From positions 23,606,074 through 23,670,073 of the forward strand of contig CM060849.1 in assembly GCA_030737835.1 (NCBI GenBank): DNA of 64,000 nucleotides, written 5' to 3'. Made by a program: the position numbers and the translations under genes. This DNA is from Acorus gramineus. Taxonomy: Eukaryota; Streptophyta; Magnoliopsida; Acorales; Acoraceae. The notes below the pieces were generated by a model, which saw only the letters and a list, made by a program, of their open reading frames with translations, searched no databases and was not told the DNA's origin. Position 1 is the stretch's first letter; each line of letters starts with the position of its first letter. This document shows positions 572-39,051 of the stretch, one piece after another.

Positions 572-4001
<3,430 letters not shown>

Positions 4002-4210
4002 GCTATTTTATAGGTTGATAAAAGTTTTGATACATCTCAAATACTGGTGGACCCCTAATGAATAGGACAAGCCTCAGGAGCTGCATTTTGCACTCTAATC
4101 TTATAATTTTTTTCTTGGATTTTTTTATAGTACTGATGCTGGATGTTTCATGGCATTTTTTAGCAAATAATATATGAAAAAATATTATTTATTTACATGT
4201 TGTCAGAGTT

Positions 4211-4216
4211 AATAAA
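4211..4216 (+). terminator. candidate poly(A) signal of adenylosuccinate lyase
   Basis: A canonical AATAAA lies about 210 nt after the lyase stop codon. Plant poly(A) signals are loose and the region is AT-rich, so this is only the best-looking candidate. Confidence 0.35.
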
Positions 4217-4263
4217 ATTGGTTTCTGACATGTGATTGTAATTTATTTCTTCATATATCTTGG

Positions 4264-4497
4264 GTGTTTTTTTATAATGAAAAAGGGAGTGAAGGAGACC
4301 TCATGCTTCTTTTCCCAGATTTCATTAAGTGGTTGGATCAGACTTTCTCAGCTGGGTCTCCAAGACAGGTGATGATAGCACTTTTTACAGGCATTGTTTG
4401 GACAATCTGGAAGGATAGAAATAGTAGATTTCACCTGAAAAATCAGCTTGTACTAACAACCAGTCATGTCAGGTTCCAAGGAAAGGAATTATATTGA
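4264..4497 (+). pseudogene. LINE (L1-type) zinc-finger-end remnant
   Basis: The 77-codon frame contains IVWTIWKDRNSRFHL. The W-x-x-W-K-x-R-N-x-x-x-F pattern is typical of the region after the zf-RVT zinc finger in plant non-LTR retrotransposons. No reverse transcriptase is present on either side and the frame opens and closes arbitrarily, so this is a small fragment just 3' of the lyase gene. The rest of 4500-4900 is AT-rich with nothing recognisable. Confidence 0.5.
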
Positions 4498-4912
4498 TCG
4501 GATTTCAGAAATGCAGGATGCGATTTGCATATGATTAAGGTATTGTATAAAATATATGCGGTATACAAGAGTATATACGGCTCTATAATTTTTTATAAAT
4601 AAAAATATATGATACTTTGATGATGATTTATAAATATAACAAGATTAATATCAGAAGACTAGAAGCATCTAACATTCTATACCCATCATCTAAAAAGGTA
4701 TGCAAAATTAACAATAGAATATAATATAATCATATCATGTTGTTTTCAATAGATAGTATTTGATGTGGTAATTACATTAAAAGAAAAAAATAACGAAGAA
4801 CAGTCAATAACAAAATAACATGTTTTTAGATAATAAAAATAAATTAAATAATAATAGATCAAAACATTTGTCACAAAAGTTGTCACAATTTTAAACCAAA
4901 CAAAATAAAATA

Positions 4913-6224
4913 TAGGGTTAAAGACATCTAAGTCCCTACAAACATGGGAAAACCCATATAAGTCCCTATTAAAATTGGGACAGACGTACGAGTCCCTGAA
5001 AACTCAGAAAAACCCAATTATCATCCCTGAGTTAAATTTTCATCCAAACTTAACGGAATATTCCCAGAATATTCCATCACATATAATTGTGTAGACATTG
5101 AAGTCCTTATAAAAAATTATAAAGACAAATTAGTCCTTGCAAAAGATAAAATTTCTTATAAAAGACTTTTACATTAAATTGTATATACATTGCAGTCCCT
5201 ATAAATAATCATAAAGACAAATTAATCCCCGCAAAAGATAAAATTGCCCCTGAAATATTTTTATATTTAATCGAATAGACATTACAGTCCTTATAAACAA
5301 TCGTAAAGACAAATTGGTCCCTGTAAAAGACAAAAATACCCTTGAAGGATTTTTACATTTAATTGTGTAGACATTGCAGTCCTTATAAACAATCATAAAG
5401 ATAAATAATAAATTTTTTTTTTTTTTTTTCATCTTCTATCCAATTGCTCACACTCCATCTGAAGATCTCAATTTGGATGTAAAAAAAATATTTTAACCGG
5501 AAGAATGTATTTTTTTTACCTTTTTGTTTGTAGGGAAGCAAAAAAATGGCATGAGTTTATTAAAATTCTCTTTGTCAGGAATGTAAATAAACAATTTTTT
5601 TGAAAAATCATGTATAGGTATTTCAAAGCAAGTAAACACCTTAAAGAAAAGAGCATTATTCATTACTTGTTTAGGTGGAGTGTGAGCAATAGAATAAAAG
5701 ATGAAAGAATAAATAAAAAAATTGTATTATTTTTCTTTATGATTGTTTATAAGTAGACTGCAATGCCTACACAATTAAATGTAAAAATCATTTAGGGGCA
5801 TTTTTGTCTTTTACAGGGACCAATTTGTCTTTACGATTATTTATAAGGACTGTAATGTCTATCCAATTAAATGTAAAAATCTTTCAGGGGCAATTTTGTT
5901 TTTTGCAGGGACTAATTTGTCTTTATGATTGTTTATAAGGACTGCAATGTGTATACAATTTAATGTAAAAGTCTTTTATGGGCAATTTTATCTTTTGCAT
6001 GGACTAATTTGTCTTTATGATTGTTTATAAGGATTTCAATGTCTACACAATTATATGTGATGGAATATTCTAGAAATATTCCGTTAAGTTTGGATGGAAA
6101 TTTAACTCAGGGATGATAATTGGGTTTTTCTGAGTTTTCAGGGACTCGTACGTCTGTCTCAATTTTAGTAAGGACTTATATGGGTTTTTCCATGTTTGTA
6201 GGGACTTAGATGTCTTTAACCCTA
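4913..6224. mobile_element. Mutator-like inverted-repeat element (about 1.3 kb) with 10-bp target duplication
   Basis: The ends are TAGGGTTAAAG and CTTTAACCCTA, and the two arms stay complementary for about 540 bp inward (4913-5456 with 5673-6224). The flanks carry the direct repeat AAATAAAATA at 4903-4912 and 6225-6234. A 9-11 bp duplication with very long terminal repeats is the mark of Mutator-like elements. Each arm contains imperfect tandem units of roughly 85-97 bp marked by AAAGACAAATTRGTCC, so the arms are themselves repetitive. The loop at 5457-5672 is AT-rich and codes for nothing. There is no transposase, so this is non-autonomous. The target duplication is low in complexity, which weakens its weight a little. 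Confidence 0.85.
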
Positions 6225-6605
6225 AAATAAAATAAGAACACGTGTCACAAAAGTGGATAGGTGAATGGTGAGTTATCTTGTCCCAATTTAAAATCAAGTA
6301 AAATAATAAATTAATAGGGTTTTTAGTTTTAAATCCTTCTAAATTATATGATTTAGTGATCGATCCCTCACTTTTTCATATTTCGATTCAAAGGATATGT
6401 TTCTTTTTAGTCCTCTGAAGAATCTATTCATAAATTATTTAATTTTTTTTTTAGTATCTAAGAGGGATTAAAAAAATATACCCTTAAAATTTAAATACTT
6501 AAATCAAGTTACGAAGAAGTGAGAATGGATCATTTACAAATACTTACAACTAAAAATCCCATAATTAATATAAAAGAGTGTAATAAAAGTGGTGTCATGT
6601 AGTTG

Positions 6606-26388: not shown

Positions 26389-26697
26389 ACCTCTACTTGG
26401 CGCAGAAATTCGTCTCCTCCTCCTGCAACCAAAGAAGGACCAATCTTCGGCCGAAGTCGCCGAGAAGAGAGGAGCGAAGACGGACCCCGAATTTATACCG
26501 ATCCGTGGAGCAGAAAAGGCGGTGGACGAAAAAGACAGCGGCCGCTTTAGAATCCGCATCTTCGCCTTAAACAGGCATCTCGGACGATTCGAAAGATGAA
26601 AAAGCGAAGAATCTGTTCTTCGAACGAGTCTCGAATACGTCGTCGTCGTCGTCGTCGTCGCTGTGTTGCTGCGAAGTGGTGTTGTTGCTGGGGACAT
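10546..26697 (-). CDS. cytosolic-type purine 5'-nucleotidase (HAD superfamily, IG subfamily)
   Basis: Seventeen exons, minus strand: 26697-26391, 23416-23106, 20839-20762, 20293-20073, 19406-19314, 18631-18548, 18144-18028, 16053-15948, 15862-15800, 15582-15529, 15333-15276, 14548-14472, 13219-13149, 13015-12955, 12519-12460, 11008-10946 and 10692-10546. All phases close, giving 656 codons, close to the roughly 640 of plant relatives. By family it should dephosphorylate IMP/GMP-type nucleotides. Motif I is VGFDMDYTLAQY, with the nucleophile and acid Asp near residues 172 and 174. Motif II is STFLVTNSLWDYTN, the Lys motif lies in ITGSSKPSFFHEDN, and motif IV is LYVGDHIYGDIL. The C-terminal part (VEDKIHHLNWSLR, then QNSRFAHQVERFACLYTSQ) is characteristic of this subfamily. 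The start is the ATG after a CT-rich leader; 26808 (would translate the CT run) and 26559 are alternatives. The amino end is Ser/Thr/Arg-rich and may be a targeting peptide. The intron after 15948 appears to use a GC donor. Confidence 0.93.
12235..12310. mobile_element. possible LTR-retrotransposon fragment
   Basis: The text GACCTATTCAACCCCCCC followed by CTTCTAGGTC resembles the CTATTCAACCCCCCTCTAG block often seen near the end of plant Copia LTRs. No primer-binding site, polyprotein or second LTR follows, so at most it is a small fragment inside a nucleotidase intron. Confidence 0.3.
12676..12751. repeat. A-run plus C-run/A-run homopolymer cluster
   Basis: An A tract of over 20 bases is followed shortly by about 14 C and then about 9 A. 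It lies in the nucleotidase intron between exons 14 and 15. The 118-codon antisense frame over it mostly translates these runs plus exon 15. Confidence 0.85.
20441..20543. repeat. two-copy 52-bp tandem repeat in nucleotidase intron
   Basis: A block beginning ATAAYAGASACTCGCCAAGC recurs with a 52-bp period at 20441 and 20493, with a handful of mismatches. It lies in the intron between nucleotidase exons 3 and 4. Confidence 0.75.
25957..25983. repeat. (ATCT)n microsatellite
   Basis: About seven tandem ATCT units lie in intron 1 of the nucleotidase gene. Confidence 0.9.
26353..26390. repeat. compound CT/CA microsatellite abutting the exon 1 donor
   Basis: On the minus strand the intron begins GTTCTCTCTC and runs straight into (CT)n then (CA)n. 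The microsatellite therefore starts three bases after the splice junction. Confidence 0.85.
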
Positions 26698-27006
26698 CAC
26701 AGACACATAATTCGTAAAGGATAGAGAGAGAGAGAGAGGATCGGACGGTCCGTGGCGGAGAAATCGCGGAATCAACGGTGGAGGTGGAAGCCTTCGTTTT
26801 CCAACCACTTGCGGTGGTGGTGGACTGTGGTGGTGGTGTGGTGTGGTGTGTGGAAAAGATGTTGTGGGGCAGGATAGCGATACCGTGTTCCGCGAGTGAT
26901 GGAGGGAGAGGAGGTTCTCAACGGAATAAGCGTTGGTTGCGTGGTTTGGGGTCTAGTCCCATTGGATGGACGGGTGTAATTGGTGGACCCCGGTTTTTTA
27001 TGGGCT
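26698..27006 (-). promoter_or_regulatory. 5' leader and promoter-proximal region of the 5'-nucleotidase gene
   Basis: This region is GC-richer than its surroundings and sits directly upstream of the chosen start codon. On the minus strand it contains a (CT)8 pyrimidine patch (26723-26739), a feature common near plant transcription starts. I see no convincing TATA box. The open frame on the plus strand here (26778-27011) is Gly/Val-rich and looks non-coding. Confidence 0.4.
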
Positions 27007-27355
27007 TTTAAACAGCTGTCGGTGATTCTCGCGTGATTTTATATGGCTAGTTGGAGTCGTCAATTAGCACACGTGCACTACAACTTCAACGGTGCATAAG
27101 ATTCTTGATTTAAACATATATATATATATATATAATTTAGTATTTTTATATCCTTGAGCCAAAATGACTTATTATATCATTATCAGGATAATAAGTCATG
27201 TCACCAAACGATGCCCAAGGATATAAAAATACTAAATTATACGTATTTTTAAATCAAGAATCTTATCCATTGATGAAGTTGCAGTGCATGTGTGTTAATT
27301 GATAATTCCAACTAGCCATATAAAATCAAGCGAGAATCACCGACAGTTGTTTAAA
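27007..27355. mobile_element. 349-bp foldback MITE upstream of the 5'-nucleotidase
   Basis: The arms are inverted complements over nearly the whole length. TTTAAACAGCTGTCGGTGAT on the left is matched by the complement of ATCACCGACAGTTGTTTAAA on the right, and both arms pass through TATATGGCTAGTTGGA and TAGTATTTTTATATCC. The centre is near 27185. The palindromic TTTAAA at each end makes it impossible to separate target duplication from terminal repeat, so the superfamily is open. The left arm has gained a short (AT)n run. There is no coding capacity. Confidence 0.85.
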
Positions 27356-28130
27356 TTTGTGGACAAAAAAAGTCAAGTATTATTCAATCGAGATTCCTCA
27401 TTGTAAACATATTGTCATGTATTATTCAATTTAAAGAGGATTTGTGAAGATTTTCATAAGTAAATGATTTTTGTGGACTTTAAAGAGAAAAATATAAAAG
27501 AAAAATTCATTTCAAAATCCCACACCACAAACTTTTACTCTACATTGTGAATATTTTCTTTTTTTACAAAACTCCTTTCATTTTCTATTTTTTATTTTTA
27601 TGTTTTTTTTATGGATGATCGTTATCTCATTTCTTTCATATTTTTCAAATTTTTTTAAATTTCTCTATTAATCACCTCTTCTTCTTTTTTATGAATGTGC
27701 ATATATATGAAATATTGATATCACCTCATATGCTTGATGAATATATGAGAATTGTGGATTTGCTTGTGTTGCAATCAATCATTTCATTATTTTATATTAT
27801 ATAATATATGTCTAGATCATCCACCATGATTTTCTAAAATGTAGATTTATTTTATTATATATTTGATTGTATATGCAATAACTCTATAATATTTGATTTA
27901 ATTTGCATTGATGATGTTTCTATTTCTGTATAATATATATGCCTATATATATTTTTATAATGTTTAGGCATACATAAAATGAAAATTATATTTAGGCATA
28001 TATACATTATATATGTCTCAATATAATGACTGCTTTTATTTAATTTTTTATTTTAAGTAATATAATGACTAATTTTATTTCATTTTATTTTAACTAATAT
28101 AATTTATGATTATTTCATTATATTTCAAGT
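27356..28130. other. AT-rich spacer with a repeat copy
   Basis: No gene is seen. Positions 27690-27845 are a diverged direct copy of 28338-28500, which belongs to the left arm of the palindrome; both contain GAAATATTGATAT and ATATTATATAATATATG. The rest is very AT-rich. Confidence 0.6.
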
Positions 28131-28874
28131 GATGTAATATATGATTATCAAATAATATATATACTTTCTTGTTTTACTATCTTCCTAATTAAGCTCATTC
28201 CTCTCATTTATAAAAGCTTATGAATTTCTCTTTCTATAACAAAAAAAAAAAAGGTTGACTCATTGTGGATTTTCTCAATAGAAGGTACTTTTTCCTCTTT
28301 TTATTTTATATTGATTCATTATCATAAAGAAGAATTTTTCTATGAATGTGCGTATGTATGAAATATTGATATTAACTCATATGTTTAATGAATATGTGAA
28401 CATGGTTCATTTACTTGTGTTGAAATCAATATTTTCATTATTCTATATTATATAATATATGCCTAGATCATCCACTGTTATTTTCCTTTTCAAATTGAAG
28501 CATATTGTGTTTGCATTCATAGATATTGTTGATATCTACAGTGCATTATACGTGTTTATGGAATAACAAACCCTAAATGATGAGTTTATTCTCTTGTTGA
28601 TATTCACTATGCATTCCATGCAACCCATATGGTATAAATACTAGTGCAAGAAGTAACCCCATTGGGCACAAAACATCTAATGCTTGCTTCTAATGCCTCC
28701 TTTTGCTCAGTAGAACATTGGAATGGAGAAGATGTTAGAAACCCATCAACTTGTTCAAGTCATAATTAATAATTACTCATACTCTATCAGACATGGTCAT
28801 TTTATATGTTATTGTTACTAGTACCTATATATACTTATATTTATGTGAACCAAATGAGACATTATGTTTTGTGG

Positions 28875-28878
<4 letters not shown>

Positions 28879-28938
<60 letters not shown>
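28879..28938. repeat. (AT)30 microsatellite, left arm only
   Basis: About 60 bp of pure AT lie in the left arm. The matching place in the right arm (near 30750) has only a short ATATATAT, so the expansion came after the arms separated or was lost from one. Confidence 0.95.
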
Positions 28939-28940
<2 letters not shown>

Positions 28941-29254
28941 TATTGTTTGATAGAATGTATAACGAAATGCTTAGATCATTCTTGTGAATATTTTTTTTAG
29001 CTTTATTGATAATTTCATGTTATTCATGTATGAAAGCATATATGATTAGGTAACCATTGTTTAAATAGCCTAGTTCTTTAAGAATTTTATTATTGCTATT
29101 ATTATAATTTTACGTTAAATTTGTTAAGATCTCTATTTCTTGTATCTTATTATTATTATTATATTTTGAATTGATTAATTTAAAAAATGGATATGAGTAG
29201 AGAGTCTCAAGTATCACAGATGTAAAAGACAAAAATAAAGGCAAAAGGAAAGGC

Positions 29255-29590
29255 AATATCGACACAGCTGGAATGTATAGTCAATGAAATCAAGATGAAA
29301 GTGAAGAATTGTTGGCTTTATTGGTAGATGTTTGTGGTCGTGGATGGTGTGACGCAAGTGGATCTTTATCTAAGCAATTAATTGAGACGAGAATTCTCCC
29401 TCGCCTTAACTCCAAACTTGGGTGTAAGAAAACATTTTCCCAATATCAAAGTCGTACCAAATACTTCAACAGGAGATTTGCCCAATTCGAAGTTCTAATG
29501 TGACAGCTCCTATTTGGGTGAGATCTCAATACAAAAAATTTGACGGTCAAGCTTAAAGTTTGAGAGAACTTTTTTAAGGTGATATTTTTG
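29255..29590 (+). pseudogene. Myb/SANT-like (Myb_DNA-bind_3 type) fragment, left-arm copy
   Basis: The frame reads ESEELLALLVDVCGRGW, then SLSKQLIETRILPRLNSKLG and KTFSQYQSRTKYF, the hydrophobic/Trp pattern of plant Myb/SANT-like domains. It continues through a TGA to a LLFG-stop-DLNTK and KV-stop-ENFFKVIF segment. Compared with the right-arm copy, both stops in that segment replace Trp codons (TGG to TGA). It points toward the palindrome centre. No amino-terminal start is convincing and no transposase follows. Confidence 0.7.
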
Positions 29591-30117
29591 AATTAGAACA
29601 TATTTTCTTTAACATTACGGTGTTTATTAAATATTAACATTAATAAATATATTTATTTGCTAAAATGGCCCTAAAGCCAGATACCTCCACATCGAGACTG
29701 TTGCAGATTTTGAGAGTTCGATGGCTGTGTTCGGGAGTGGTAGTGTTTTACAAAAGTCTATAACTTAAAATAATGTTCATAGAAACCCACCAAAGTCCGA
29801 ATCGAATATACCCCATTAATCAACTCCCCCAAATTGAGTATTTCACGAGGCTCGAGACTACTAGTTACGGTATGAGCGGTTTAACGGTGGTTGATAGTGG
29901 TGCAGCGTTAGCTCCTTCACCACATGACGACAACCCTGGTTTGGAGCTAAGGTGAGGAAGAATTCAAACTCCAGAACACAACCATCAAACTCTCATAATC
30001 CACAACAGTCTCGGTTTAAAGGTGTCTTGCTTTAGTGCGATTCTAGCAAATAAATATATTAATTAATGTTAATATTTAATAAACACAATAATGTTAGAGA
30101 AAAATATGTTCTAATTC

Positions 30118-30440
30118 AAAATATCACCTTAAAAAAGTCCTCCCAAACTTCAAGCTCGACTGTGAATTTTTTTGTATTGGGAGACCACCCAAAACCGAAG
30201 CTATATCAAATTAGATCTTCGAATGGGACAAATCTCCTCTTGAAGTATTTGATATGACTTTGATATTGGGAAAACGTCTTCTTACACCCAAGTTTGGAGT
30301 TAAGGTGAGGAAGGATTCTCGTCTCAACTAATTGCTTAGATAAAGATCCACTTGTGTCAAGCCATCCGCGACCACAAGCATCTACCAATAAAGCCAACAA
30401 TTCTTCACTTTCATCTTGATTCTATTGACTATACATTCCA
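30118..30440 (-). pseudogene. Myb/SANT-like fragment, right-arm copy (better preserved)
   Basis: The minus strand repeats the left-arm frame: ESEELLALLVDACGRGW, SLSKQLVETRILPHLNSKLG and KTFSQYQSHIKYFKRRF. After one TGA, which both copies share, comes SFGFGWSPNTKKFTVELEVW then EDFFKVIF. The FGW...T..FT...EVW pattern is the usual C-terminal part of this plant domain and keeps both Trp residues that the left copy has lost. It also points toward the centre, so the two copies are tail to tail. Confidence 0.72.
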
Positions 30441-31408
30441 GTGGTGTCGATATTGCCTTTCCATTTTTGCCTTTTTTTATTTGTGATATTTGAGACTCTT
30501 TACCCATATCCATTTTCTAAATTAATAATAATAATAATACACAAGAAATAGATACCATATTTAACAAATTCGATGTAAAATTATAGCAATAGCAATAATA
30601 AAATCCTTAAAAAACTAGGCTATTTAAACAATAGTTACCTAATCATAGATGCTTTCATAAATGTATAACATGGAACTATCAATAAAGCTAAAAGAATGTT
30701 CACAAGAATGATCTAGGCATTTCGTTACACATTCTACCAAATAATACGATATATATTGGACCACAAAACAAAATGTCTTATCTGGTTCACATAAATATAA
30801 GTACTAGTAACAATACCATATAAAAGGACCTGCCTGATAGAGTACGAGTAATAATTAATTATAACTTGAACAAGTTGACAGGTTTCTGACATTCTTCTCC
30901 ATCTCAATGTTCCTAAGCATAACAGAGGTATTAAAAACAAGCATTAGACATTTTGTACCCAATTGGGGGTTGGGGAGGGGGTGGTTTGGTTACTCCTTGC
31001 GCTAGAATTTATACTATATGGGTTGCATTAAATGCACAGTAAATATCAATAAGAGTATGAACCCATCATTCGCGGTTTGTTGTACCATAAACATGTAAAA
31101 TTAATGCACATTAGATATCGACAACATCTAGGAACACAAATAATAATATGTTTCAGTTGAAAAGGAAAATAACAGTGGAAGATTTAAAGCATATATTATA
31201 TAATATACAATAATAAAAATATTGATTTCAAGACAAGTAAATCTACAATTCTCATATATTCATCAAACATATGAGTTAGATATCAATATTTCATACATAT
31301 GCATATTCATAAAAAAAAAATTCCTTTGATAATCAACCAATATAAAATAAAAAAGGAGAAAAAGGTACTTTCTATTGAGAAAATCCACAATGAGCAAACC
31401 TTTTTTTT

Positions 31409-32184
31409 GGAGATTTTATTTTTAAGTTCTTGTAAACTATGCTATTTAGTGATCCATTTCTCTCTTTTTCATATTTATTTTTAAGTCCTCAATTTTAAAC
31501 ATTATTTCGTTATAAGTCCCTCTTTCAAGTATTAGTCTGTTTGGGCTGACGGATAGTTGAAATCCCTACACTACGTACCCCCTTTGAAATTTTTATTTTT
31601 AAATCCTGTAAAGTATGCTATTTGGTGATCGATCCCGCCTTCTTCATATTTTTATTTTTAAGTCCATGTATACCAATAAAAAATTTATAACCAGGATATC
31701 GATTTTCCTATCCAACCTATCTTCAACTTCCATCATTTGATACTTTAAATAAATGATAGTAGCCAAAATTCTATAATAACAACAGAAATGTTGGATCCTT
31801 CATGAATGAGATTTCAAATATAAATAAATAAATAAAAACTAAAATAATAACATCTTAAATGTAAATACATAAATAAATAATATAAATCTGTTTAATTCCC
31901 ATAAAATCACTAAATATCTAATTTAAATTTAAGTTTAGAACTATGCAAAATAAAATTTTCATTGACTGAATACAAACTTTTTAATGACATCTAAATTTTT
32001 AAATTTAAAATTAAAAACACACATAAAATATCTAATTTATATTTTACAATTTTCAACCAAGCAAAAACATTTAAATCAAAATTTAGTAATAAAAAATTCT
32101 TTAAATTTCCTTATGTAATCATTCTTTTTATGGGGATTGATCACTAAATAACATAGTTTATAGAAACTTAAAAAATAAAATTAA
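31409..32184. mobile_element. 0.8-kb inverted-repeat element nested in the right arm
   Basis: The left arm has an uninterrupted poly(A) tract at about 28240-28252. The matching poly(T) in the right arm is split (31401-31408 and 32185-32195) by this segment. Its ends are inverted copies: ATTTTATTTTTAAGTT with TGCTATTTAGTGATC at the left, and the complements at 32140-32180. The left end is partly duplicated inside (31588-31670). A related block, TTTAGTGATCGATCCC, stands alone at 6352-6367. T-rich target duplication, non-coding. Confidence 0.7.
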
Positions 32185-32304
32185 TTTTTTTTTTTGTTAT
32201 GGACAGAGAAATTCATAAGCTTTATAAAAGGGAAGGGATGGATTTAATTAGAAAGAGAATAAAATAAGGAAATATATATTATTTAAAAATCAATATATTA
32301 CATC

Positions 32305-32622
32305 AATCAAAACAAGTTGAACTTTTTGTTTATGAACTGATATCTCAATAGAATAATGCTAAATTTTTTGTCTATGAATTGACGTTCAAATAAGGACGTG
32401 ACTTTTTATACACAAACTAATATCCTTATTAAATAACATAGGATTTACAAATCACCGAGACTTTTTATCCATGAACTCATTTTCTAATTGAACAACTCAT
32501 GATTTACATATCACTACCCCTAATATTATATTTAGGACCGTAAAAATGATAATAGAGCTCAAGAAAATATAAGGGTGAATCCAAACAGTCACTGCACATC
32601 GTTATCCAGGCCAAAACCCGCC
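32305..32622. promoter_or_regulatory. upstream region of the lumen-protein gene
   Basis: AT-rich sequence between the palindrome edge and the start codon at 32623. It holds loose repeats of the phrase TATGAACTGATATC / TATGAATTGACGTTC about 60 bp apart. No clear TATA box or other element could be assigned. Confidence 0.3.
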
Positions 32623-35600
32623 ATGACCGCCTTCGCAACCGGAGGAGCTGGCCTTATCGTCCTGAGCTCGAACTCATCCACGCCGTCCGTTAAACAACCG
32701 ACGCCTCTCCGTCTCTCCCCCTCCAACAGGCCCTCCCAACTCCAAAACCCTAGCTCACTCGCCCACTCCCGTCGAAACCTCTCCTTGCTTTCCCTCCTCG
32801 CTCTCCTCCCCCTCGGGACCCCTCCCGCCATCGCTTTCTCCTTCGGCATCCGTACCACACGCGATCGCAATCTCTCTCTCTCTCTCACTTCCTTCGTCAG
32901 TGCGTGAAACCCTAACGTTCTCTCCCTTTCTGGTCTCCCGCAGAGGGCCCGAAAGAATGGCTGAAGGAGCAGAAGAGGAAGGCTTCGAAGTACGTCCTGG
33001 CGCCGATCGAAGCGTCCCGGCGGAGCCTCCGCTCCGCCTACCTCTTATTGAGTCGGTTCTTCTTCTTCTGCTCTCGTTCTCCTTCTTCTGCTCTGTTTTG
33101 GATCCGATTGTTTTGGTTTTTTATTACAGCTACGGAGGGTTCTGGACGTTCCGAGGAGAGTATTAGAGAAATCACGAGTCTTTTGGATTCCGCGGTGAGG
33201 GATTGTGTTCCGCAGGAGAGGAACTCGTTTGTTGCGTTTCAAGCGCGGACAGGAGTGGAGGTCCTCAATCATTTTTTTTTTTTTTTCTGATCATATTATT
33301 TGGTTATCTGTTTAACATGTGGTGTTGCGGTCTCCCATTTGAAATCTAATGTGGTGCTTTTGAATTGAATGCGAGGTTTATTTGTTATTGTACTAGGAAT
33401 AGAATGGTTGATATACGTGATATCAATTGATAAATTTGACTCCATTTGGTATTTATGATTTGTGATATGGTTATCATACGTGATTTACTTTCCTTGCAGG
33501 TTTGTACATTCAGTCTCATTTTGAAGAATGCGGCTTCTTTGCTTGATGATGGTGATCCCTTAAAGTTGGCTGCTGCAGCTAGCCTAGACGATCTTACGAG
33601 GTGAAGATTGTTAATCATATATATATATATATATATATTTATAATTCTTGCTTGTAATGATTTTTTTAGGTTGTTGAGAAAATCCAAAAACTGTTGCATG
33701 CAACATTAGTCATCTTGCTTTGTTCACCGAGATCTTAGTGCGGATTCCTATGATCAGTTGGCATGGTTCATTTGTTATAATTTTTCTAGATGCATTTTCT
33801 CTCGAGGATACCGTGTTAGTTGCCTTATATTGAAATGACGAAGATGGCTTTCTGTAAATTTATGTTGCTGATCATGTTTTTTTCATCTGACTTGAAACAT
33901 GTAACAAACATGGATCCTATATCCTAAGTTCCTTGACTGCAAATGTCTTGGGATGTTGAATGAGTTTAGAAATTAGAAATTTAGAACTCTTCCTTCCCTT
34001 CTTTGCTTATCCAGTAAGAATGCCTCTTTGCCTTTGTTTTTCTTCACGATACTGTTTCCTACATATGTTTGTCTCTAATTTATCCTATTACCATATAAGT
34101 AATCAGGTAGGTGCATTTTTGGATGCTATTATTTGGATGGTTTATTGAGGGTAATACAGGAAAGTAGATGGATGTAGAAACTTCAATCGATCACGTCAGA
34201 ATGTGACACCATAGTTTGTTACAGACCACCTCTGTTATGCCATTTGACTTCAGTATGCACAATTACATGTTTCAATCTAGGTTTGTGACCCACAAAATAC
34301 TATGCCTTATGTGAATAAAACAGGTGTCAATTTTGTCCATTTAAGTCAACTGAGTAAGAGTAGCAGTGTTCGTTGAAAGGAGAGACGGTTGGCATCTCCC
34401 CTGACAAGGATGGGATTGGCCCTCGGGCTTACCTGTTACCACACATGGTTAAGGCTACCCACCTTTGTTGGATCAACCCAATTTTGGTTATCAAAAACAG
34501 AGTATTTTGTGTGATGCATTGGGAAATTGAAAAGTCTAATCATGCGGCAGATTGATTGCATTCTATCTGTGTTGGATTGTAAAAGGCTATCACTGTTGCT
34601 GATGATTCAATATCTATGTTTTAGATCTTTTAGGCTTCCTTTTTTTTTTTTGGTGGGTATAGGCTTCCTTTTTTATATACCACTTCATACACCTAACTGG
34701 TCTGACACACATGATCATGATTAAGTTCCCATTTCATAATGTGACAACATAGTTTGTGACAGGCCGGCTCTTTTATGCCATTTGGTTTCTGTATGCATAT
34801 TTCTGTTTCATTTTAGGTTTCTGATCTGCAAACATCTATGCTTCATATGCATAAAACAGGTGTCAATTTCATCCATCTGATCTAAGTCAACCGAGTAGTT
34901 GCAGCTTTTCCTCGTTCTAGTATAATTACTTTTCACTCAGAGATCTGCCAATTGTGGTGTTGCATATCATCTCCATTTTTTTTCCTGCATCAGCAATATA
35001 TTTTGATTAGATAAATTTGCTAAGAACTGTTCTCCATATTAATTGGTTGTGGGACTGGATATTGGAAACTCAGTTGGTCAGTTGAGATACTCCTTTATTT
35101 GGTCCAGATTAATGATTCTGGAAATTAATGGTCTAACTAAACAACAAATGGAACTGAATTTGGATCATGGAATATGTTGATGATGCACTGTATACAATTG
35201 TTTTTTACAATTTTGTATTTCATTTTTTTCTCCACAGGTTCTCTCTCCTTTTGCTCTGGACCCTATACTGGATTCTAACTTTTTGTGCATATCAATATTG
35301 AAATTTCTGTCAAATTATTGCAGCTCGTTTGGCTCTCTAAATGATGCTCTAAGGAAAGGCAGTCTTCAGATAGATGAAAACCGGTAAGTGTCTCTCCTAT
35401 ACCACCTGATGTTATGCCTTGTTCATCTTCAATGACAATGTATATCCAAGACTTGTATAAAATGGAATTTTTATTTTTGAAGTATATCGATGATTCTTCT
35501 TTTACCTTCCGCTATGCCTTTGCTGTTTTCCCAAAGGGGTTTCACTTGGCAATCCTTTACTGGTGCTTTTATTTGTCCACATGCCGTTTGATGGCTGTCA

Positions 35601-37705: not shown

Positions 37706-39051
37706 CTACGAGTCACCTTGGCCAGGCGATCCAGAGGATTCGACCAAGTACAACCGTCGGCAAGGTGTCCCATCCTCTGGGTGTGTCTGTACTGATCTAG
37801 GCAGCTTCCGAAGCTTGTTGAACATGTTAAGTGGATCGTGCATCAACCCAAAATGTGCATCGGGGTCTCCAATCTGTGACAGTTTTACATGTGAGAAGCC
37901 CAAAGATGGCAAGAGTTGTTCAGGCCAGTCGCTGTAGAAATGGAAGGTGGATAGTGAGAGTTCAGCGGAAGACTGGTTCATGAAGTCTGCGAGGAGGACA
38001 GTTTGTGTCAAGTCACAGAGAGAAGCTATGGACTGGAGGACCTGCATCGCTTCAGCCTGGGGTAGGTAGTAAATGATGCCTTCCAGCACCCAAACGGTGT
38101 TCTTTTCAGGTACGAAACCACATCTCTGTAGCTTTTCAAGCCAGTCTTTCTCTCTTATGTCTGCTGCAACTCTGATCAATGATTTTGCGGTCATTGTCAG
38201 CCCATTGTGCTTGGCAGATCCCATGACCTCACTGAGGAGAGCCGCCTTCATTTGCAAGAGATCAGGGAAGTCTACTTCAAATACGCTGCTATCCTTCAAG
38301 CAGCTCAGACGGTATGCCCTCGCATCCATGCCTGTGAATTTATAAGCATCAAATCTACATTCATTTTCTACCCTTCGAGTTCACTAACTCGCTTTGAGAA
38401 AATCTTATGACAATCCACTATCCTCTGTTTTGTGTGCATTTACTTGAATTTTTTGTCCAATGTCACCTACTTTGAGTTTCTTCAACTCTATTACCAGCTT
38501 TTTGAGCCTTTCTAATATAGTTTCAATTTTAAAATTTACTTCTGGTTCCATTCCATGACATTGTGAACAATGCTTATAGTCAAAGATAAAGAGCTATTAT
38601 GATTCAGATTGAATTAGCTACTTGACATATATACGAAACTCAAGAACCAATTCAACTAACCGGCACCAAGGAGAACGACTTGTGACCCTTTGTCACCTCC
38701 AAAGGATCCGATGGCAGCCTCGATCTTGGAATCAAACCACAGCGTCCGGACGGCCAGGATCACTCCCGACACCTCCCTCGCATTGTTGATGTGGTCCCTC
38801 CTCATCTTCTCATGGAGGCTCCTCAGATAGCTCGCCCCCGCAAGGACCTCCGCCACCGGGTCCTTCACAACGTGCTTCCACAGAGCCCTCCCCGCGGCTG
38901 TCTGGCACGCGGACCTCCTCAAGGAATCCCACTCTGTGTCAATGGTCTCATGCATCGCCCGCACGGTCTCCGAGGAGGCCAGGAGCTCCGGCAGCTCGAG
39001 CTCCTCGTCGGTGGAGCCTTTCAGGTTGGTGGTCTCTTCATTATTGGACAT
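37706..39051 (-). CDS. LCMT-like S-adenosylmethionine-dependent methyltransferase
   Basis: Two exons, 39051-38661 and 38331-37706, joined in phase 1 across a 329-nt GT-AG intron, encode 338 residues. The join restores VVLLGAGMDARAYRLSC, the SAM-binding motif I of the leucine-carboxyl-methyltransferase fold (Pfam LCM). It is followed by FEVDFPDLLQMK, ADIREKDWLEKLQRCGF and VWVLEGIIYYLPQAEAMQVL, all in family order. The amino-terminal part has TAAGRALWKHVVKDPVAEVL and MRRDHINNAREVSGVILAVR. This group (TIGR00027-like) is separate from true PP2A methyltransferase and its substrate is unknown in plants. The start is the first ATG, after an AC-rich leader. No signal peptide is seen, so it is probably soluble. 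Exon 1 is GC-rich. Confidence 0.88.

Follow-up and report, generated by a model that had tools for sequence, protein, structure and literature searches.

How did a palindrome of several kilobases, with the same decayed Myb/SANT-like coding piece in each arm, come to lie in the genome of Acorus gramineus, and what might it still do there? It occupies positions 28131–32304 of the window, the 64,000-nucleotide stretch analysed here (contig CM060849.1 of assembly GCA_030737835.1, positions 23,606,074 to 23,670,073 of the forward strand). An earlier note, written from the sequence alone, had taken it for a foldback repeat with captured protein-coding sequence in both arms, whose read-through transcript might feed small RNAs. 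Our analysis indicates that the palindrome is very probably a tail-to-tail pair of copies of one PIF/Harbinger transposon family, inverted relative to each other and both internally deleted, with the transposase gene gone and part of ORF1, the Myb-like gene of such elements, retained. An apparent captured-gene foldback would in that case become an ordinary transposon pair, with a parent family and a two-gene relative (locus L009) in the same genome.

The palindrome itself is real. The left arm pairs with the inner part of the right arm and, past an insertion, with its outer part (Table 1), confirming the facing arms of about 1.4–1.6 kb reported earlier. Their main part aligns with 1237 matches and 163 mismatches, that is, 88.4% identity without gaps (25 gap openings; Jukes–Cantor distance 0.127 in the segment table), well above the limit of about 60% that the earlier note had set for abandoning the idea. 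This alignment scored 1718, where 100 dinucleotide shuffles never exceeded 51, and the outer 120 bp scored 136, where 200 shuffles never exceeded 35; the flanks beyond the arm limits scored 18 against a maximum of 32, which is chance level. The loop (29739–29967) measures 229 bp, close to the 215 bp given before. The arms lie within 28131–32304 as described, but homology to the parent element spans 27356–32520, which rules out 28131 as an element end.

To place the arms in the genome, we searched all 398.6 Mb with 28131–29700 as query and scored 40 of 323 first-look candidates, the scope of every statement below on the presence of family sequence elsewhere. This gave at least 95 matching pieces in 38 places (10-kb grouping, window included); 20 of the other 37 places, mostly from the top of the match list, were examined as loci L009–L028. 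By these alignments, both arms are copies of one PIF/Harbinger family dispersed in the host genome. The family unit begins with tandem repeats that match 32303–32475 reversed, continues with the equivalent of 27356–28561 and ends with that of 29749–29814; in the reference copy, L015, it covers 2935–5290. Counting pieces of at least 50 bp, the 5′ repeats precede the equivalent of 27356–28561 in 15 of the 20 loci, with a shorter piece in L011, and the 3′ part was found in 11. Offsets among the 5′ subterminal repeats are multiples of about 42 bp. Short terminal inverted repeats (TIRs) close the element, commonly GGGGTAGTCAATTAGGATTTTCATGG at the 5′ end and GGGTAGTCGATACGGACTTTGATGG at the 3′ end when reverse-complemented. 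TAGTC adjoins a G-run or its remnant at 15 of 18 listed 5′ ends (exceptions: L013, L015 and L025), and ACTAC precedes a C-run or remnant at 13 of 16 listed 3′ ends (exceptions: L025, L026 and L027b). Among the 14 copies with both ends read, nine are flanked on either side, at no more than 6 nt from the end, by an identical TTA or TAA; random intervals from the same loci shared one in 2.9% of 20000 draws. As a separate observation, the 3′ end in L026 (2658–2717) enters a run of nearly 60 C, perhaps an assembly or sequencing artefact.

Fuller relatives supply the genes of the family. At L009, exon 1 of ORF1 is open for 135 amino acids from its ATG and exon 2 for 202 (At2g29880_C, E = 9.7e-20), and pieces downstream match the transposase domain DDE_Tnp_4 (PF13359, cut-off 24.8 bits) with E = 1.6e-8 (34.8 bits) and 6.7e-6 (26.2 bits). 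L011, on the same contig past the end of the window, has a 5′ terminus, a decayed ORF1 and decayed DDE_Tnp_4 pieces (E = 1.1e-5 and 1.6e-5; 25.5 and 25.0 bits). DDE_Tnp_4 matches occur in these fuller relatives and nowhere in the palindrome. L010 is a deletion derivative; its ORF1 exon 1 continues in frame into what looks like the C-terminal tail of the transposase. According to one account (PMC2836001), PIF/Harbinger transposition needs both an ORF1 with a Myb-like domain and a transposase, and duplicates 3 bp, TTA or TAA; we file the copies under PIF/Harbinger because their ORF1, transposase and TTA/TAA duplications match this description. They share with plant PIF/Pong/Ping-type elements and non-autonomous derivatives of these the two-gene relatives, TTA/TAA flanks, G-rich short TIRs and many internally deleted copies. 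The pair in the window differs from such elements in that it keeps part of ORF1 only, that each copy has lost one terminus and that the copies are mutually inverted. Two reading frames deserve mention in their own right: L009 4824–7359 is a nearly open copy of ORF1 plus transposase that lacks element ends, possibly a truncated or domesticated copy, and the ORF1–tail fusion on the minus strand of L010 (3301–3880) is open for at least 184 amino acids, the tail being our reading of a stretch to which Pfam gave no name.

The coding piece in the arms fits this family. As first noticed, the same Myb/SANT-like piece is present in both arms and points inward, and we found intron 1 in both. Myb_DNA-bind_3 (PF12776, cut-off 23.6 bits) was detected in the right arm at 40.2 bits (E = 7e-10, with one X at a stop), in L009 at 62.6 bits (E = 7e-17) and in L010 at 28.3 bits; the left arm reached 18.1 bits (E = 0.0054), below the cut-off. 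Judged by its position beside DDE_Tnp_4 pieces in L009 and L011, the piece belongs to the element itself, as its ORF1 complete with intron, and is not a captured gene. Both versions are decayed. Compared with the L009 frame, left exon 1 has stops at codons 34, 106, 113 and 127 as well as 1-bp and 3-bp deletions; in right exon 1 codons 34 and 106 are stops, and one deletion of 4 bp and another of 6 bp are present. At codon 34 the arms carry different stops (TGA and TAG) in place of TGG; at codon 106, L011 and the two arms alike have TGA. The dN/dS ratios (0.77 between the arms; against L009, 0.51 for the left and 0.40 for the right) conflate the evolution of open copies with the decay of the arms, and we draw no inference from them. 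A search for relatives of the ORF1 protein with solved structures returned six PDB sequences at E ≤ 1, of which the best (0.0071, 21 residues of a PRDM9 chain) was taken as chance.

The identity, orientation and truncations of the two copies can be read from their alignments with other family members. In the left copy, 27356–28561 aligns with copies elsewhere and 29749–29814 with the 3′ ends of L015 and L010, followed by ATTA. The left edge of the loop is thus an element 3′ end, which rules out the loop as a continuation of ORF1 exon 2. The right outer edge is an element 5′ end: the reverse complement of 32303–32527 aligns with the 5′ end of L015 at 83% identity over 236 columns. It is because of this alignment that we identify the right-copy 5′ terminus; the terminal 9-mer by itself carries no significance, occurring 5 times in the window where 4.4 occurrences are expected. 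The right copy has no equivalent of 27356–28130. Of the spacer between the copies, the first 116 bp had no clear match in the 20 family loci (best score 29; at most 27 in a small null). Compared with the left arm, the spacer scored 41 (at most 30 in 500 shuffles), and the ORF1-exon-1-like piece that adjoins the right copy where it is broken resembles filler copied from a template during the repair of an end. The insertion in the right arm belongs, as a side observation, to another dispersed short-TIR family, with relatives at window positions 6321–6383 and in L011, L021 and L023.

Table 1. Features of the palindrome and its immediate surroundings (window coordinates)
Feature	Position	Strand	Remarks
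Palindrome, left arm	28131–29738	+	
Palindrome, right arm, inner part	29968–31409	−	
Palindrome, right arm, outer part past insertion	32185–32304	−	
MITE-like (miniature inverted-repeat transposable element) inverted repeat	27007–27355		118-bp arms, 87%; abuts truncated 5′ side of left copy
Left copy, probable PIF/Harbinger	27356–29814	+	5′-truncated (5′ TIR and most subterminal repeats gone); 3′ TIR inside loop
TATA-like motif TATAAAAGCTTATG, left copy	28209–28222	+	Upstream of ORF1
Segment common to both arms	28565–28830	+	Not found in seven aligned loci
Decayed ORF1 exon 1, left copy	29187–29578	+	ATG at 29187; end set by following GT donor
ORF1 intron 1, left copy	29579–29664	+	GT donor kept, AG acceptor lost; end approximate; by-eye comparison with L009
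ORF1 exon 2, 5′ part, left copy	29665–29746	+	Followed by jump to element 3′ end; boundaries approximate
Spacer between copies	29815–29967		Recognisable origin only for 29933–29965
33-bp ORF1-exon-1-like piece	29933–29965	−	29/33 identical to 30286–30318; adjoins broken right-copy end
Right copy, probable PIF/Harbinger, inverted	29968–32520	−	5′ TIR 32512–32520; 3′-truncated within ORF1 exon 2
Decayed ORF1 exon 1, right copy	30128–30513	−	ATG at 30513
Later insertion of another element	31410–32184		TIRs 31414–31457/32136–32179; splits right arm near TATA-like region
Right-copy 5′ terminus GGGGTAGTG with flanking TAA	32512–32523	−	TAA is a candidate target-site copy

Several observations weigh against assigning the pair to a PIF/Harbinger family. 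The left copy lacks a 5′ end and the right copy a 3′ end, so that neither has a complete target-site duplication. Elsewhere, 5 of the 14 copies with both ends read showed no shared TTA or TAA by script (L024, L026, L027a, L027b and L028); by eye, TTA stands at both sides of L024 and L027b, L026 ends in its long C tract, and no fit is seen in L027a or L028. Of the four DDE_Tnp_4 matches, three barely exceed the cut-off, and a Pfam scan of the N-terminal transposase pieces gave no match. The earlier note had suggested a parent transposon and a search for a complete one: the parent family exists, but no complete copy was among the 20 loci examined. L009 lacks both termini, its family homology beginning near the TATA-like motif and its transposase frame ending, by eye, before the C-terminal tail, and L011 is full of stops. 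Nor do the arms bear a separate sign of methylation, CpG observed/expected being no lower in them (0.53 and 0.54) than in the whole window (0.53). The high share of C>T and G>A in the changes private to each arm (left 20/42, right 17/33) was dropped as methylation evidence because the control was mixed (L011 16/36; L009 7/43, with the direction reversed).

How did two such copies come to face each other? Most likely this happened at about the time of the family's radiation, through neighbouring insertions or through inverted duplication of one copy. Afterwards, the left copy would have been truncated at its 5′ end. The right copy would have lost its 3′ end, leaving the small, apparently templated filler, together with the equivalent of 27356–28130, and would also have taken in another element (31410–32184).

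There is about an even chance that two members of one ORF1-bearing subfamily inserted independently, tail to tail and about 150 bp apart. Over the ORF1 region, the arms appear nearly star-like relative to other copies. Left and right arm are 0.878 identical there; their identities to L009 are 0.864 and 0.874, to L010 0.901 and 0.883, and to L011 0.851 and 0.862 (column sets differ between comparisons). No placement of an arm in the ORF1-region tree had support above 31/100 (IQ-TREE), and four-taxon site counts were 7 for left with right and 5 and 6 for the alternatives. The family also contains other tail-to-tail pairs. In L027 (1128–4347), the 3′ ends of two copies lie about 30 bp apart, and the copies are 0.847 identical to each other, compared with 0.895 and 0.936 to their best matches elsewhere; in L018 (2698–9122), two copies of different ages lie about 2.5 kb apart (0.703, compared with 0.801 and 0.982). 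These pairs look like separate insertions and, because their members are nearer to copies elsewhere than to their partners, separate insertion is a supported route in this family. The left copy's own 3′ end, followed by ATTA, also speaks for two insertions. Against them, among the scored candidates ORF1 was found elsewhere only in L009, L010, L011 and L012, so that a chance meeting of two ORF1-bearing copies is unlikely unless insertion was local or targeted, and an extra segment common to both arms fits closer kinship.

That segment is the first argument for the second route, inverted duplication in situ of one ORF1-bearing copy during break repair, such as abortive gap repair after excision, which would form the palindrome in a single step and which we hold at somewhat short of an even chance. 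In the 40 of 323 candidates scored, none of the other matching pieces covers query positions 460–743, leaving 28561–28878 without a counterpart among them. When the left version was aligned with L009, L010, L011, L012, L018, L020 and L024, scores were 25–34 (at most 40 in 200 shuffles), except for 51 in L011, which is a short AT-rich match. The common segment points to a common subtype for both arms. Inverted duplication would also account for the position of the arm breaks, which in ORF1 exon 2 are only about 10 bp or less apart, for the 33-bp filler at the broken right-copy end and for the grouping of the arms in the outer region (support 0.87 with FastTree, 78 with IQ-TREE). Yet in that same region the left arm has an identity of 0.871 to L026 and of only 0.824 to the right arm, and over ORF1 the arms (0.878) are hardly nearer to each other than to L009 or L010 (0.864–0.901). 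The low tree support and even site counts, the L027 and L018 pairs and the 3′ terminus retained by the left copy likewise disfavour it. Two separate insertions come out slightly ahead, and the data do not decide.

Whichever route was taken, a transcript across the loop could fold back on itself. For plus-strand RNA of 28131–32304, the predicted minimum free energy (MFE) was −1985 kcal/mol, compared with −772 to −818 in shuffles (a thin control, n = 3). In this fold, 1368 of the 1608 left-arm bases pair with something to the right of the loop, and the whole structure has 13 uninterrupted helices of at least 21 bp. A largely double-stranded hairpin RNA is thus physically plausible. A Rfam scan of 26500–33500 gave no match at the gathering score. 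As to a promoter, the TATA-like motif in the left copy is the sole match in the window (0.08 expected, with up to one mismatch), and it recurs exactly in 19 of 28 loci, some of them overlapping; the right-copy form is one base shorter and is separated from the body of its copy by the insertion. If the motif acts as a promoter, as we infer, the 5′ regions of the elements would transcribe inward. Outside, the left neighbour is a 5′-nucleotidase gene on the minus strand (PF05761, E = 4.7e-21 and 2.7e-19), and the right neighbour is a candidate gene from about 32623 on the plus strand, with an open frame, a putative transit peptide by eye and no Pfam match to the frame. Both, the right one being a putative gene, read away from the palindrome, which weakens the case for read-through from outside. 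The hairpin proposed in the earlier note therefore keeps its strong self-pairing and loses likely outside sources of read-through.

Its further proposal, that small RNAs from the arms act on relatives, has also lost ground. After removal of simple k-mers, L010 contained 54 of 2853 arm 21-mers as exact matches, the highest count in any of the 20 relatives; L009 contained 50, L011 38 and the other 17 loci 0–16. The two arms have 52 non-simple 21-mers in common. Six copies are 0.953–0.982 identical to L018b and, on this identity, would have spread after the arms diverged if rates were similar.

The locus is most likely a relic and at most a local source of small interfering RNAs (siRNAs) for RNA-directed DNA methylation. 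It would no longer make protein or transpose; a transcript started at an element promoter and crossing the loop would fold back, and the probable outcome would be DNA methylation directed locally by siRNAs rather than any dedicated role in regulation. We consider local methylation the likeliest present effect because, according to a review (PMC12595863), 634 of 885 Arabidopsis inverted repeats have a gene no more than 3 kb away, and of these 634 about 486 make 24-nt siRNAs. The same source gives the MITE at sunflower HaWRKY6 as an example of a near-gene siRNA-producing inverted repeat. The palindrome resembles such loci as a transposon-derived inverted repeat close to genes; it differs from them in being kilobases long and diverged, whereas the review deals mainly with MITEs.

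A more active role would be that of a trans-silencer like Mu killer of maize. According to its description (PMC3440606), Mu killer is an internally deleted and partly duplicated MuDR in which about 1.3 kb of the transposase gene is inverted, both outer ends come from the same side of the element and a hairpin of about 4 kb has been proposed; two short antisense transcripts were reported in silencing plants, and read-through sense transcripts in non-silencing ones. The palindrome has the corresponding anatomy, an element gene being present in two inverted copies with parts deleted, and partial copies of a DNA transposon facing each other over it (1.4–1.6 kb here). It differs in being derived from PIF/Harbinger instead of Mutator and in involving ORF1 instead of the transposase gene; its arms have diverged by 12%, one outer end is lost and one 3′ end is kept in the loop. 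The comparison is one of anatomy, silencing activity being known for Mu killer.

We regard it as improbable that hairpin or antisense RNA over ORF1 silences autonomous members of the family in this way. In favour are the partial inverted duplication of an element gene as in the published description, a predicted fold far below the shuffles and the fact that the ORF1-bearing L010, L009 and L011 are richest in exact 21-mers; against these stand the 12% divergence and few common 21-mers of the arms, the younger L018b-like copies that seem to postdate that divergence, the neighbouring genes transcribing away and the split right arm. Equally improbable is a natural analogue of Mu killer in a fuller sense, in which inward transcription of the inverted ORF1 pair would yield siRNAs that target the protein-coding partner of the transposase gene, the DNA-binding ORF1, and the family, by inserting beside its own 3′ ends, would form tail-to-tail pairs and so repeatedly build its own silencing trigger. 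Such pairs occur in 3 of 21 places (the window, L027 and L018), which were picked by similarity to the palindrome and are not an unbiased sample. If tail-to-tail pairing is real and frequent, insertion, and not rearrangement, could be the origin of silencing triggers of the Mu killer kind. Among the papers listed in literature searches on inverted Harbinger pairs and on Harbinger or Ping hairpins, none appeared pertinent, and beyond these we do not claim absence from print.

Two readings of the palindrome fare worse still. A foldback element with a captured host Myb/SANT gene would explain long inverted arms that hold coding sequence, but it is very unlikely: in both L009 and L011 the piece accompanies DDE_Tnp_4 sequence, in L010 it lies within a TIR element, a Myb-like ORF1 is standard in PIF/Harbinger (PMC2836001), and the coding sequence inside belongs to the element's own genes where a foldback of that kind would hold a foreign one. 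A mis-joined inverted duplication in the assembly can be practically dismissed, because the arms differ by 12%, a (TA)30 tract is private to the left arm and the insertion at about 31410–32184 is private to the right.

The window holds three further features away from the palindrome. A separate foldback element at 4913–6224 (window 4903–6234) has 469-bp arms of 93% identity that contain 92-bp tandem repeats, and is flanked on both sides, by eye, by AAATAAAATA; this 10-bp duplication suggests a Mutator-like foldback element. At 34196–34876, direct repeats of 73 and 69 nt, 79% and 83% identical and spaced 536–538 bp apart, mark a decayed local duplication. Finally, an open frame on the minus strand at 37706–38380 matches leucine carboxyl methyltransferase (PF04072, E = 1.6e-28).

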